A program made the position numbers and the translations under genes. A DNA stretch of 59,812 bases from an uncultured Cytophagales bacterium (lineage in GTDB: Bacteria > Bacteroidota > Bacteroidia > Cytophagales > Thermonemataceae), in the NCBI GenBank assembly GCA_938002655.1, contig CALLAC010000013.1:1-59812 (forward strand), written 5' to 3'. The notes under the pieces are model-generated. The model worked only from the letters and a program-made list of their open reading frames with translations. It did no database searches and was not told the origin of the DNA. Positions 46,590 to 53,596 of this stretch are shown here, piece by piece. Each line of letters begins with the position of its first letter. Within the stretch, counting starts at the first letter, position 1.

Positions 46590-48635
46590 TTAGTGAATTA
46601 CGTAATTGAAACTAAACATAAACCTTCTACCGAAATCAGGTATTTGGTTAGGCTTGTAGAATATGGCACTATTCCAGCCTTGAGCATCGGAATTTAGTAC
46701 ATTCCAAACGGGCGAATTTAGCAAATTATTTACTTTTAGCTCCATAAATAAGCCTTTTATGTTGAGCAATCTATCAAAATTTTGTCGGATGTATAAGTTG
46801 AAATAAATACTTGCAGGCACCTTGTGTTTGGTGAAATTATTAGGATTGACATCTGGGTTTTCAATAACTTGATTGCCTTGTACAATAATGGCTTCGGGGC
46901 GGGTTTCTCCTACATTGTTATTAGCAGGAGCAAGCATTAAAATTTTACCATTAAAGTATCCTTCTAAGCCTAGAACGGTTCCTTTTTTGAAAGAATGACT
47001 TGCTCCACCTTTTATCATTAGGTCAGGTGAGTCCAGAGGTAGAAGCATATTGGGTAGTGGATCATAAACGGGTGCTACACCTCCTGAACCGATAGTTCCC
47101 AAGATACCTGTTCCTGGACGAGGATTTTTGTAATCTCTCATAAAAGGGAAAGCATCAGAAGGGCGTCGAAGAATGTAATACGTTGCCGAGCCCCATAAAT
47201 CAATAGCTTCTAAATTATGGTGAGCTGAAAGTGTAAAACCTGTATTATTCCAAGCACTACCCGCATTGAAAGACTGCAAAGCAGGATTGAATTGATACAA
47301 ACGATTATTTTGCAGATAAAACACATTGAAAGAAACATTGCTTCGCTTTTTATTGAAATTATGGCTTACAATTACCTCATAATTATCTGTAATTTCGGAG
47401 CGAGGCTGAATATCCAAAGGCAAGCGAATTATTTCTTGTGGTGGCACTGCCCGAAATGCACGAGCAAAGATAGCTCTTATATTGGTATTTTCTGTGAAAC
47501 GATAATTCACAACAATTCTTGGTGTGAAGTTTTTATCTGTTTTATTTTGAGCTTGAATAGGCGTGTATTCGCCAGTGGTAGAGTTAAACGTATAGACTAC
47601 TTGATTACCCAAGTTACGATAAGCATCTTTAATAAATTGATAGTCGTAACGAACCCCTGCGGTGATGATAATTTTGGGAATAGGGGTGTAAATAGCTTGT
47701 AGCCATAAACCGTAGTACCAACCATTATCAGAAATGCCTCCCGAAGGTCGATAGAAAAGAAATTTATTGTTTCTTGCTGAAATCCATTGGATATTTTTGT
47801 AGTCGGCAATTTCTAAATTCCCTCCTAAACTTATGTTAATTTTTTCAGTTTTATAAGGTATCATCTGAAATTCAGCTCCCCAAGATTTGGTAATTCCTGC
47901 ATAATTTATGCGTAATCCGCCACCATTATATGCCAAAGTACTATCATTCAATAAAGAAGCATCTATGAGCGTATTATACCTAACGAAATTACCATCTATT
48001 AACAAAAATCTATTTGCATTACCTCCGCTGAAAGGATTTAGAAAAGTATTGAGTGCTGTGGAAGCCAACGTTTGCCCATTGATAGGGTTTCTATCGGTAA
48101 GGCTAAAATCTTGAATTTCGCGATTAGTACTCAAGTTGTAGCTAATACGAGCAGTTATTCCCCATTTGGTAATAGGTTTGAGCTCTATGTAAGCGGCACC
48201 GTGGCTCCATTGTCTATCATTATCGGGGTGGTTGAAAGTTACATTATCTTTGGGTTGTACCCACGAAACGGCTCGGCTGTGCATAAACGCTCCTATGGAG
48301 AAATACTCACTATTAAAACGCATATCAAAATTAGGAATATCATAACCTCCATTAAAGCTACCATCGTTAGGAACATCAAAATATACTTGATTTCTGTAAA
48401 TAATATCGGCAAGCCCTGCTCCTTTTTTGGTAAAACTACTTTGCCAAGGGCGAGCTGTGTTACCCGTTTTGGTATCATATTCTAACCCTCCTGAAAAACG
48501 ATAAAGTGTAAGGGAAAGATTCGTTTTGTCGGTAATACCAAAAGTTGTTCCCATCGAATATCGTTGTACGATAGAGTTTCTACCTAATTCTTCAAAAACA
48601 GCAGACGTATAAATAAATTTTAGTACGATTTTCAC
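46590..48635 (-). CDS. TonB-dependent receptor, beta-barrel part (split by a frameshift from its plug)
   Basis: The reading frame (GTG-type start at 48635; 681 residues) carries only the barrel of a TonB-dependent receptor: AVFEELGRNSIVQRYSMGTTFG, alternating strands, and a C-terminal ending FGRRFMFSFNYVIH with the terminal aromatic. The plug and signal peptide lie in the adjacent upstream frame (48592-49185), which overlaps it by 44 bases. The natural gene is almost certainly 46590-49185 with a one-base frame change near 48600-48640. A sequencing error, recent mutation or programmed shift are all possible. The barrel would take up a nutrient or siderophore complex. Confidence 0.7.
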   Translation of the reverse strand: MKIVLKFIYTSAVFEELGRNSIVQRYSMGTTFGITDKTNLSLTLYRFSGGLEYDTKTGNTARPWQSSFTKKGAGLADIIYRNQVYFDVPNDGSFNGGYDIPNFDMRFNSEYFSIGAFMHSRAVSWVQPKDNVTFNHPDNDRQWSHGAAYIELKPITKWGITARISYNLSTNREIQDFSLTDRNPINGQTLASTALNTFLNPFSGGNANRFLLIDGNFVRYNTLIDASLLNDSTLAYNGGGLRINYAGITKSWGAEFQMIPYKTEKINISLGGNLEIADYKNIQWISARNNKFLFYRPSGGISDNGWYYGLWLQAIYTPIPKIIITAGVRYDYQFIKDAYRNLGNQVVYTFNSTTGEYTPIQAQNKTDKNFTPRIVVNYRFTENTNIRAIFARAFRAVPPQEIIRLPLDIQPRSEITDNYEVIVSHNFNKKRSNVSFNVFYLQNNRLYQFNPALQSFNAGSAWNNTGFTLSAHHNLEAIDLWGSATYYILRRPSDAFPFMRDYKNPRPGTGILGTIGSGGVAPVYDPLPNMLLPLDSPDLMIKGGASHSFKKGTVLGLEGYFNGKILMLAPANNNVGETRPEAIIVQGNQVIENPDVNPNNFTKHKVPASIYFNLYIRQNFDRLLNIKGLFMELKVNNLLNSPVWNVLNSDAQGWNSAIFYKPNQIPDFGRRFMFSFNYVIH

Positions 48636-49185
48636 GACTTAAAAATACAGGGTCAGCATTACGAGTAATAATATTGACAACACCCTGTACTGCTACACTA
48701 CCATACAAGGCACCGCCAGGTCCCCTCAATACCTCTACTCTTTCTATATTGTTTAAGTCGCCAATAACATCTGCATAAAAATCGCCAAAATGGAAACGCT
48801 CATTGATACGATGGCCGTTGATGAGAAAAAGTACATTTCGTCGGGTATTATTAGTAAAAAAGCCCCTGAAATCTGTATCAAAATTGTTTCCCGTATAATG
48901 TGTATAAACTTCGGGAACACGAGCTAAAAGTTCTGCTAAATTTCGATAGCCATATCTTTCTATATCTTCGCGGGTAATTACCGTGATACTTGCTGGAGCA
49001 TCGCTCAAATTTTCACTGATACGCGAAGCTGTAACTACTTTGATTTCTGCTTCTTCATCTTTTTTGAGCCTCAAAATTTCTCCTACTTCAGGAGTAAAGA
49101 GCCTAATCTGAGTGCTATCATTTTGTGCATACGCATACAGTACAGACAGCACAGCAAGAAGATTAAAAAATAATAGCTTAAACAT
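48592..49185 (-). CDS. TonB-dependent receptor, signal and plug part (truncated by frameshift)
   Basis: The 197-residue frame has a signal (LLFFNLLAVLSVLYAYAQ), then a canonical plug domain: EIKVVTASRISENLSDAPASITVITREDIERYG, LAELLARVPEV, FRGFFTNNTRRNVLFLINGHRIN, IERVEVLRGPGGALYGSVAVQGVVNIITR. It ends abruptly in IYLYVCCF where the barrel should start; the barrel occupies the +1 frame just downstream. The receptor lacks the N-terminal carboxypeptidase-like repeat of SusC proteins, as does its neighbour. Start at 49185, 22 bases after the upstream receptor's stop. Confidence 0.8.
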   Translation of the reverse strand: MFKLLFFNLLAVLSVLYAYAQNDSTQIRLFTPEVGEILRLKKDEEAEIKVVTASRISENLSDAPASITVITREDIERYGYRNLAELLARVPEVYTHYTGNNFDTDFRGFFTNNTRRNVLFLINGHRINERFHFGDFYADVIGDLNNIERVEVLRGPGGALYGSVAVQGVVNIITRNADPVFLSRENRTKIYLYVCCF

Positions 49186-52145: not shown

Positions 52146-52679
52146 TTAATAGTGGCTGAAAGTCATGATAGCTTTGTTTTCTGAAATTTTTTCAATCTGG
52201 GTTTGATTATTGAAATACACGTCTAATCCTTTCACAAGCGATATGTACAAATCAAAGAGTTTGCGTTGGGAAATATAAGTTACTTCGTATTTGTTAGGTG
52301 CAAGCTCTTTGTATTCAAAGCGAGGTGGCAAGGCTGTTTCACGTAATTTACCAAACATTTCGTGAATTTTAGTTAGTTTAAGAACCATATCTTTGGTAGT
52401 ATTACATCCTATGTAGAAGCCTGAATACAATTTAGGAGCATATTCTGTACACCAATAGACACCAAAATCATCAAATAGCTGTTGTAAAGAAATTCCTAGT
52501 ATTTCAGCAGATTTGAATATGAAGTTAATGGTTTGTTTTTCATCAATATCTTCTTTGAGTTGGGTAATAAAAGAATAGTTAGGTGGCAAATTGCAAGATT
52601 TGAGGCATTCTTGCCACTTTTCTTTACCATATTTTTGAATGATAGTTTCTTCAAGACAGTAATGGATAGTACCTTGCAT
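52146..52679 (-). CDS. H-NOX haem-based gas sensor, stand-alone
   Basis: The 177-residue protein is a haem nitric oxide/oxygen-binding domain. It has the proximal haem ligand His106 (KLTKIHEMFGKL), the conserved LPPRFEYKEL stretch and the propionate-binding Y135-x-S137-x-R139; the 29-residue spacing from His to Tyr is the same as in known H-NOX proteins (His102/Tyr131). The start MQGTIHYCLEE at 52679 is typical of the family; an earlier ATG at 52697 overlaps ispH. It would bind NO or oxygen and signal to a partner. Usual neighbours are a kinase or cyclase; here the neighbours are ispH and crtZ. Confidence 0.85.
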   Translation of the reverse strand: MQGTIHYCLEETIIQKYGKEKWQECLKSCNLPPNYSFITQLKEDIDEKQTINFIFKSAEILGISLQQLFDDFGVYWCTEYAPKLYSGFYIGCNTTKDMVLKLTKIHEMFGKLRETALPPRFEYKELAPNKYEVTYISQRKLFDLYISLVKGLDVYFNNQTQIEKISENKAIMTFSHY

Positions 52680-52683
52680 AAAT

Positions 52684-53529
52684 TTATAGTTTTTCAATAA
52701 TGGCTTTTACTTCTTCCATTAGCCACATAGGGGTAGAGGTAGCTCCGCAGATACCCACCTTTTCGCCTTCGTTGAACCATTCTTTTTTCACCTCGTTGGG
52801 GTGAGAAACAAAATGCGTATTTGCATTTGTTTGTTTGCAGACTTCGTACAACACTTTGCCATTAGAAGATTTAGTTCCTGCTACAAAGATGATTTTATCA
52901 AATAATTTAGCAAAATCTCGCAATTCAATGTCACGGTTCGAGACCTGCCTGCATATTGTATCATTAGCTTCTACTTCTATACCTTGCTTTTCTAAGAGTG
53001 CTTTGATTTCATAAAATTTATCTGTACTTTTTGTAGTTTGGCTATAAAGCGTAATTTTGGGTGGGAGTTTTTCAATTTCTAGTTCGCTTATATCCTGAAA
53101 TACGATTGCTTCGTTGTGTGTTTGCCCTAAAAGTCCTACAATTTCGGCGTGTCCATGTTTTCCGTATATGTAAATTTTTTCATTTTTATCATAAGAATTC
53201 TTGATACGATTCTGCAGTTTGAGTACCACTGGGCATGAAGCATCAATGAGTTCTAAATTGTTTTCAAGGGCAATTTGATAGGTGGAGGGGGGCTCACCAT
53301 GAGCTCGGATGAGTACTTTTTCATTTCGCAACGATTTGAGCATATCGTGATTGATAATCTTCAAGCCTTTGGCTTGGAGACGTTTTACTTCTTCGTCGTT
53401 GTGTACTATATCACCCAAACAATACAGCTTACCTTCTTGGTTCAGAATTTCTTCTGCCATTTCAATAGCATAGACTACGCCAAAGCAAAAACCTGAGTGT
53501 TTATCAATCGTAACAGAGAGATTGAGCAT
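52684..53529 (-). CDS. ispH: 4-hydroxy-3-methylbut-2-enyl diphosphate reductase IspH
   Basis: The 281-residue iron-sulfur enzyme makes IPP and DMAPP, the last step of the MEP pathway. The three cluster cysteines are C15 (HSGFCFGV), C99 (DASCPVV) and C193 (NDTICRQ). H44, H77 (RAHG), H127-x-E129 (HAE) and the SxN (KSSNGK) binding residues are present. The ATG at 53529 is at the conserved LSVTIDKHSGFC start; the long upstream frame overlaps the ABC-F gene and is not coding. H-NOX follows after 4 bases. Upstream of the start is an AGGAGG-like site (TTGGAGGAAG) about 20 bases away. Confidence 0.95.
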   Translation of the reverse strand: MLNLSVTIDKHSGFCFGVVYAIEMAEEILNQEGKLYCLGDIVHNDEEVKRLQAKGLKIINHDMLKSLRNEKVLIRAHGEPPSTYQIALENNLELIDASCPVVLKLQNRIKNSYDKNEKIYIYGKHGHAEIVGLLGQTHNEAIVFQDISELEIEKLPPKITLYSQTTKSTDKFYEIKALLEKQGIEVEANDTICRQVSNRDIELRDFAKLFDKIIFVAGTKSSNGKVLYEVCKQTNANTHFVSHPNEVKKEWFNEGEKVGICGATSTPMWLMEEVKAIIEKL

Positions 53530-53571
53530 ATGATAGCAAAAAATCTTCCTCCAATATACGAAAAAGTTCGT

Positions 53572-53596
53572 AAAATTGTTTAAAAAAAACAATTTT
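53572..53596 (-). terminator. AT-only hairpin after the ABC-F gene, possible attenuator
   Basis: A 10-base stem (53572-53581 with 53587-53596) around a five-base loop lies 19 bases past the ABC-F stop and 42 bases before the ispH start. It has little GC and no good T run after it, so it may only weaken transcription into ispH or stabilise the end. Confidence 0.35.

Follow-up and report, generated by a model that had tools for sequence, protein, structure and literature searches.

A stand-alone H-NOX gene set between ispH and crtZ in genomes of Raineya

A gene for a stand-alone H-NOX protein, hnoX, lies between ispH and crtZ in genomes of the Cytophagales genus Raineya, an unusual, real and conserved setting that was seen in this one genus. 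H-NOX proteins are known as sensors of NO or O2 that act through kinases, cyclases or chemoreceptors, and stand-alone forms working with a cognate histidine kinase are known from Shewanella and Vibrio. In the stretch of 59,812 nucleotides that was analysed (the window), the three genes follow one another on the minus strand in the order ispH, hnoX, crtZ, with 4 bases between ispH and hnoX and 14 bases between hnoX and crtZ (Table 1), as a preliminary description of this DNA had given; the span of that description, 52146-53529, covers hnoX and ispH and leaves crtZ just outside. No kinase, cyclase or HNOBA gene adjoins hnoX, its neighbours being ispH and crtZ, and the earlier statement that the usual kinase or cyclase partner is missing beside it therefore stands.

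Table 1. Positions of the features of the window that are discussed in the text
Feature	Positions	Strand	Basis or remark
hnoX, stand-alone H-NOX, 177 aa	52146..52679	-	ATG start; HNOB profile, motif residues, predicted fold
ispH, crtZ-linked paralogue, 281 aa	52684..53529	-	NCBIfam IspH; three cluster cysteines by eye
crtZ, beta-carotene hydroxylase, 158 aa	51655..52131	-	four His boxes by eye; Pantoea homology
Promoter-like element AAACAATT-N14-GTATATTG	53552..53581	-	22 bases upstream of the ispH ATG; one exact copy per genome in four genomes of the genus
TPR-SpoIIE phosphatase, 818 aa	44126..46582	-	5 kb downstream of crtZ; also in R. orbicola
TonB-type receptor	46590..49185	-	two overlapping frames, 48592..49185 and 46590..48635

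The product of hnoX is recognisable as an H-NOX from both its sequence and its predicted fold. It scored 98.5 bits against the Pfam HNOB family (PF07700; cut-off 25.5), with residues 3-163 covering positions 2-162 of the 163 in the profile, and matched zero other Pfam families at 1e-3. Alignment places His106 at the position of His102, the proximal haem ligand of Tt H-NOX, and Y135, S137 and R139 at those of the YxSxR residues Y131, S133 and R135, while the conserved Pro of H-NOX is present as P119; among 71 aligned H-NOX rows the proximal His is kept in 70, and the YxSxR motif and the Pro in all 71. An AlphaFold2 model built from 13 sequences adopted the H-NOX fold with a pLDDT of 90.7, its best match among solved structures being Nostoc H-NOX (Z 21.2, rmsd 2.0, 172 residues); the top structural matches were all H-NOX or guanylate cyclase domains, and the first other row came at Z 7.2. 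The best sequence match among solved structures was Tt/Ct H-NOX (1u4h, E 5.3e-14), an O2 sensor fused to a chemoreceptor, whereas the Raineya protein is not fused. With hnoX as the only HNOB match in this genome (97.5% complete), profile score, alignment and predicted fold bear out the stand-alone H-NOX with His106 and YxSxR that had been described, and the protein is best explained as a haem-based, stand-alone gas sensor that is functional. It resembles the Shewanella and Vibrio H-NOX proteins in its single HNOB domain, proximal His, YxSxR motif and predicted fold, but differs from them in having no adjoining kinase and in sitting in a carotenoid-branch operon. That it might instead be a haem-free redox or thiol sensor, with oxidation sensed through cysteines, appears highly improbable: a haem-independent response to oxidation is described for Vibrio cholerae H-NOX (excerpted text of PMC7108781) and all 13 rows of alignment A2 have C8, but the haem-contact motifs are intact.

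The gene upstream of hnoX encodes an IspH that scored 365.7 bits against the NCBIfam IspH equivalog (cut-off 276), with cluster cysteines in the motifs CFGV, SCPV and CRQV as judged by eye. CrtZ had zero Pfam or NCBIfam matches at 1e-3, and none in Pfam even at 0.1; over 139 aa it shares 50.4% identity with the hydroxylase adjoining crtB in a Pantoea crt cluster, a homologue that its record labels 'sterol desaturase family protein'. The best plasmid hits to CrtZ have about 50% identity, the one examined for context being the Pantoea crt cluster. The ispH of the trio is not the sole copy, a possibility we rejected on finding a second paralogue in this genome (G000:C27:34466-35338); a second ispH is present in seven of the eight family genomes, the eighth having a completeness of 81%. 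When 26 rows were placed in a quick tree, in which two long branches were flagged with a program warning that long branches meet and in which the unlinked side consists of family members only, 19 crtZ-linked and 7 unlinked copies fell on opposite sides of one branch (SH-aLRT 100). Given that there are two paralogues and that linked and unlinked copies separate in the tree, the IspH adjoining hnoX is most simply, and probably, the carotenoid-branch copy. The tie to isoprenoid/carotenoid supply proposed earlier is thus better restricted to the carotenoid branch, this IspH being a second paralogue. The carotenoid cluster of Echinicola likewise keeps a copy of ispH with its carotenoid genes, as in Raineya, and the excerpted passages on it name no H-NOX; of the six strains compared in that study, five have crtZ in a separate cluster (PMC8683446).

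A linkage survey extended the trio beyond the genome in which it had been described, since ispH-hnoX-crtZ recurs in R. orbicola and in the Raineya MAG SKYG86; confinement to a single genome, which the preliminary description had named as a refutation, does not apply. The closest named hnoX loci are those of R. orbicola SPSPC-11 (89% identical), SKYG86 (82%) and Thermonema rossianum (50%), and three of the four genomes labelled Raineya, this one included, carry an H-NOX within ispH-crtZ, the exception being G056. HNOB matches occur in 135 of 390 genomes of the order. Among 149 H-NOX loci of the order (L001-L071 and L165-L242, a few of which overlap, with the window's own as L001, a narrow view of about 1.5 kb or less per side for L001-L031, and fragment G212:C5 and the last HNOB matches of the order left out), ispH or crtZ was found near H-NOX in the three Raineya genomes only. 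The stand-alone profile A1, searched against the phylum, gave a match in 24 of 395 genomes, and neither ispH nor crtZ was near H-NOX at any of 35 further loci, which comprise 25 phylum loci beyond the window's, spanning about 1.5 kb per side, and the named loci L109-L118, 12 of the 35 repeating places already counted and 23 being new. A general Bacteroidota linkage of ispH, hnoX and crtZ was therefore rejected.

What is widely conserved is the pair without the sensor. In all eight family genomes ispH and crtZ are same-strand neighbours, and in five of them (G056 and four others) no H-NOX intervenes. At the best 30 crtZ matches from a search of 118 genomes, 103 of which had a match, ispH lies upstream of crtZ within about 510 bases at 19 loci (8 of 8 in the family and 11 of 22 elsewhere). 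The linkage of hnoX is thus young and narrow, and ispH-crtZ is the old pair. Because five of the eight family genomes, including the Raineya-labelled G056, have the bare pair, we conclude that hnoX was inserted into a standing ispH-crtZ operon, loss from the operon being less likely. The H-NOX gene of G056 has another place in its genome, ahead of a gene for a 1347-aa HNOBA hybrid kinase; an equation of this kinase-linked protein with the H-NOX of the Raineya trio was rejected, as the H-NOX tree puts them in separate regions.

The hnoX gene is itself under purifying selection. Across the three Raineya genomes the proteins are 89-93% (IspH), 79-89% (H-NOX) and 89-91% (CrtZ) identical, while synonymous differences in the trio comparisons are near saturation (pS 0.58-0.83); dN/dS of hnoX was 0.052 for the single pair of window and R. 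orbicola, at a dS of 1.1, the two other pairs being too saturated (pS 0.81-0.83) to yield a ratio. The gaps measure 4, 8 and 13 bases between ispH and hnoX and 14, 12 and 1 bases between hnoX and crtZ, and therefore spacing drifted while gene order held. Adjacency in R. orbicola says little alone because the whole neighbourhood is common to both genomes: its 16-kb stretch holds 11 of the 15 window genes tried and ends inside the eleventh. On the 7,150-base contig of SKYG86, by comparison, the trio is intact with none of 12 other window genes tried, and both flanks differ.

We considered that hnoX might be a hitch-hiker whose arrival behind ispH brought it expression and which is retained only because its removal would upset crtZ, with a signalling role unrelated to carotenoids. 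The arrangement is found in one genus only and related stand-alone H-NOX genes sit beside unrelated genes, both of which speak for such an origin; moreover, breaks in an operon would strand crtZ and are disfavoured whatever the genes do, so that conservation is no proof of a functional tie. However, hnoX is itself under strong purifying selection and the trio is intact in SKYG86, where both flanks differ, and we regard a hitch-hiking hnoX as rather unlikely.

Upstream of the operon, the promoter-like element of Table 1 recurred, as a pattern with a spacer of N13-15 and no mismatch, once in each of the four Raineya-labelled genomes and always ahead of the crtZ-linked ispH, with 0 occurrences of a reversed control; the pattern having been derived from these same four sequences, the once-per-genome count speaks for rarity and not for function. 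Since G056 carries the element before its bare ispH-crtZ pair, with no H-NOX between, the element was probably part of the old operon before hnoX was inserted.

Taken together, these observations lead us to a tentative reading, to which we would give slightly less than an even chance, in which expression of the sensor goes together with that of the carotenoid-branch IspH and of CrtZ, and the sensor signals in trans. An H-NOX gene would have been inserted, before the three Raineya genomes diverged, into the older operon of the second, carotenoid-branch ispH and crtZ. The promoter-like element lies ahead of all three genes. In this reading ispH, hnoX and crtZ would be co-transcribed, and the sensor would then be made when the carotenoid branch is made. 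Haem would be held via His106, binding of NO or O2 would change the shape of H-NOX, and H-NOX would relay the signal through contact with a protein whose gene is not linked to it, the likeliest partner being a sensor kinase or a SpoIIE-type phosphatase, of which the genome has many. The insertion of hnoX between two pigment-pathway genes, and its being kept there, suggests that NO/O2 sensing is tied to carotenoid production.

Signalling in trans is supported by the relative from T. rossianum (L035/L109), whose gene has that of a kinase on one side and that of a REC-SpoIIE protein on the other. A quick tree of 71 H-NOX rows places the Raineya trio (support 99) in a group of 14 (support 94) that further holds T. 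rossianum and rows from other families; the T. rossianum protein is the only other family H-NOX in this group and has the same L/W/Y/L distal pocket, but its gene is placed in a CZB-kinase-H-NOX-REC-SpoIIE cluster, with the CZB protein and a PAS-kinase upstream and the REC-SpoIIE protein downstream, and not in an ispH-crtZ pair. It is also the only one of the 14 with a gene of cluster c0 (kinase) as immediate neighbour, as far as neighbours were clustered or scanned. An adjacent kinase is thus commonly missing in this branch, and its absence alone does not single out IspH as the target; overall the earlier interpretation is partly supported.

A direct action would dispense with such a partner: H-NOX would bind the carotenoid-branch IspH, or CrtZ, and, once its haem has taken up NO or O2, turn the enzyme off or shield the 4Fe-4S cluster of IspH. 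We know of no H-NOX that controls a metabolic enzyme directly. Furthermore, IspH and CrtZ work without H-NOX, their pair being bare in G056 and four other family genomes, and stand-alone H-NOX genes of the same branch adjoin quite different genes. Against these points stand the survival of the trio amid different flanks and near-saturated synonymous change, the oxygen-sensitive Fe-S cluster of IspH (excerpted text of PMC11192765), the want of a linked signalling partner and of HNOBA in three Raineya genomes, and a second ispH that would make gating of the crtZ-linked copy harmless. We judge direct action improbable. The more specific proposal that H-NOX is a gas-responsive regulatory subunit of IspH (or CrtZ), in which Tyr80 reads O2/NO and contact gates pigment synthesis without kinase or second messenger, is in our view distinctly improbable.

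Returning to signalling in trans, HNOBA (PF07701) had zero matches in this genome, R. orbicola and SKYG86, a result that is indecisive as a test for partners: the kinase beside the T. rossianum H-NOX (G070) also lacks an HNOBA match, and an unlinked kinase partner therefore remains compatible with it. The homologue of that kinase in this genome is an unlinked 1266-aa GAF/PAS kinase (C1:372301-376101, 58% identical over the C-terminal half), and that of the REC-SpoIIE protein is likewise unlinked (C1:175271-176509, 46% identity); because the kinase query gave 24 matches in this genome and the REC-SpoIIE query 25, these two are candidates best by homology only. The kinase/REC-SpoIIE pair does not need H-NOX, since G041, which bears the T. 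rossianum genus label, keeps the two about 130 bases apart and has zero HNOB matches. The TPR-SpoIIE phosphatase of the window was also considered as a partner, but its proximity may be by chance given the 25 matches to the REC-SpoIIE query.

The ligand of the Raineya H-NOX may be NO or O2. Its distal pocket reads L9/W76/Y80/L144 at Tt positions 9/74/78/140, as against Trp9, Asn74 and Tyr140 in Tt/Ct H-NOX (L9, W76 and L144 in Raineya), and differs from that of the kinase-linked H-NOX rows of the order. Of the 32 rows that lack a c0 gene within 50 bases downstream, 12 have the L/W/Y/L pocket, as against 0 of the 38 that possess one; the kinase label of c0 rests on Pfam scans of two members, the two groups were assigned by reading neighbourhoods, the first includes a few rows whose c0 gene is more distant or lies on the upstream side (L022, L025, L035), and the rows are related, so that the counts are no independent statistic. 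Tyr at Tt position 140 occurs in 0 of 70 rows of the order. We reasoned that the distal Tyr80, which may be able to stand in for Tyr140 in stabilising O2, as work on H-NOX mutants would suggest, could with Trp76 hydrogen-bond O2 although there is no Tyr144, making the protein an O2 sensor and not an NO sensor, a question that cuts across the other readings. This pocket, whose Y80 is shared by all 13 rows of A2, and its signature among rows without the downstream kinase-cluster gene are on the side of O2. By contrast, the residue that stabilises O2 in Ct/Tt H-NOX, Tyr140 (excerpted text of PMC9814294), is missing in Raineya, and no paper on the substitute Tyr came up in a literature search. With Tyr140 absent yet Tyr80 and Trp76 present, either NO or O2 may be the ligand.

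The organism's respiration also bears on the ligand. R. orbicola, an orange bacterium from a hot spring that contains carotenoids, is strictly aerobic with a growth optimum near 50 C, and its authors did not find genes for nitrate reduction and denitrification (excerpted text of PMC5982127). A haem-copper NO reductase sought among the COX1-family genes of this genome was not found, both genes being oxidases: a cbb3 oxidase above the cut-off and an aa3-like oxidase whose best model, CtaD_CoxA, was below it. A source of NO is therefore not evident, which favours O2; an alternative NO sensor of the FIST (NosP) type had 0 matches in six genomes. On balance we hold an O2 sensor to be possible but doubtful.

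No H-NOX in an ispH or carotenoid operon came up in the literature among the matches listed, covering titles and abstract starts and few subscription journals; in the excerpted text of PMC6696476 'carotenoid' occurs once, as a reference, and that of PMC8738867 has no mention of stand-alone, Bacteroid or carotenoid. A pigment-operon H-NOX with its own pocket signature and no adjoining signalling gene offers a compact system for testing whether gas sensing is directly coupled to isoprenoid/carotenoid metabolism in Raineya, and the two ispH paralogues allow control of the carotenoid branch to be tested apart from essential isoprenoid supply.

Some further neighbourhoods were observed in the course of the survey. 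H-NOX genes lie beside SpoIIE-type phosphatases (REC-SpoIIE or coiled-coil-SpoIIE) at L035, L036, L037, L002, L010 and L018, three of these six having been scanned with Pfam, and the phosphatase of L002 looks by eye like an HNOBA-SpoIIE protein. Small SpoIIAA-looking proteins of about 135-190 aa occur near stand-alone H-NOX at L045, L051, L048, L047 and L070; a SpoIIAA-like recurrent partner was dropped as a candidate, as one of five scanned had a weak Pfam match (E 0.052). At L039, L056 and L071, all from one genus (f13 g16), H-NOX follows two genes that by eye resemble those of an ECF sigma factor and an anti-sigma factor, with no adjoining kinase-cluster gene. Finally, the TonB-type receptor of the window is split into two frames where R. 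orbicola (L032) has a single frame of 865 aa at the matching place, and the split represents a pseudogene or an assembly error.
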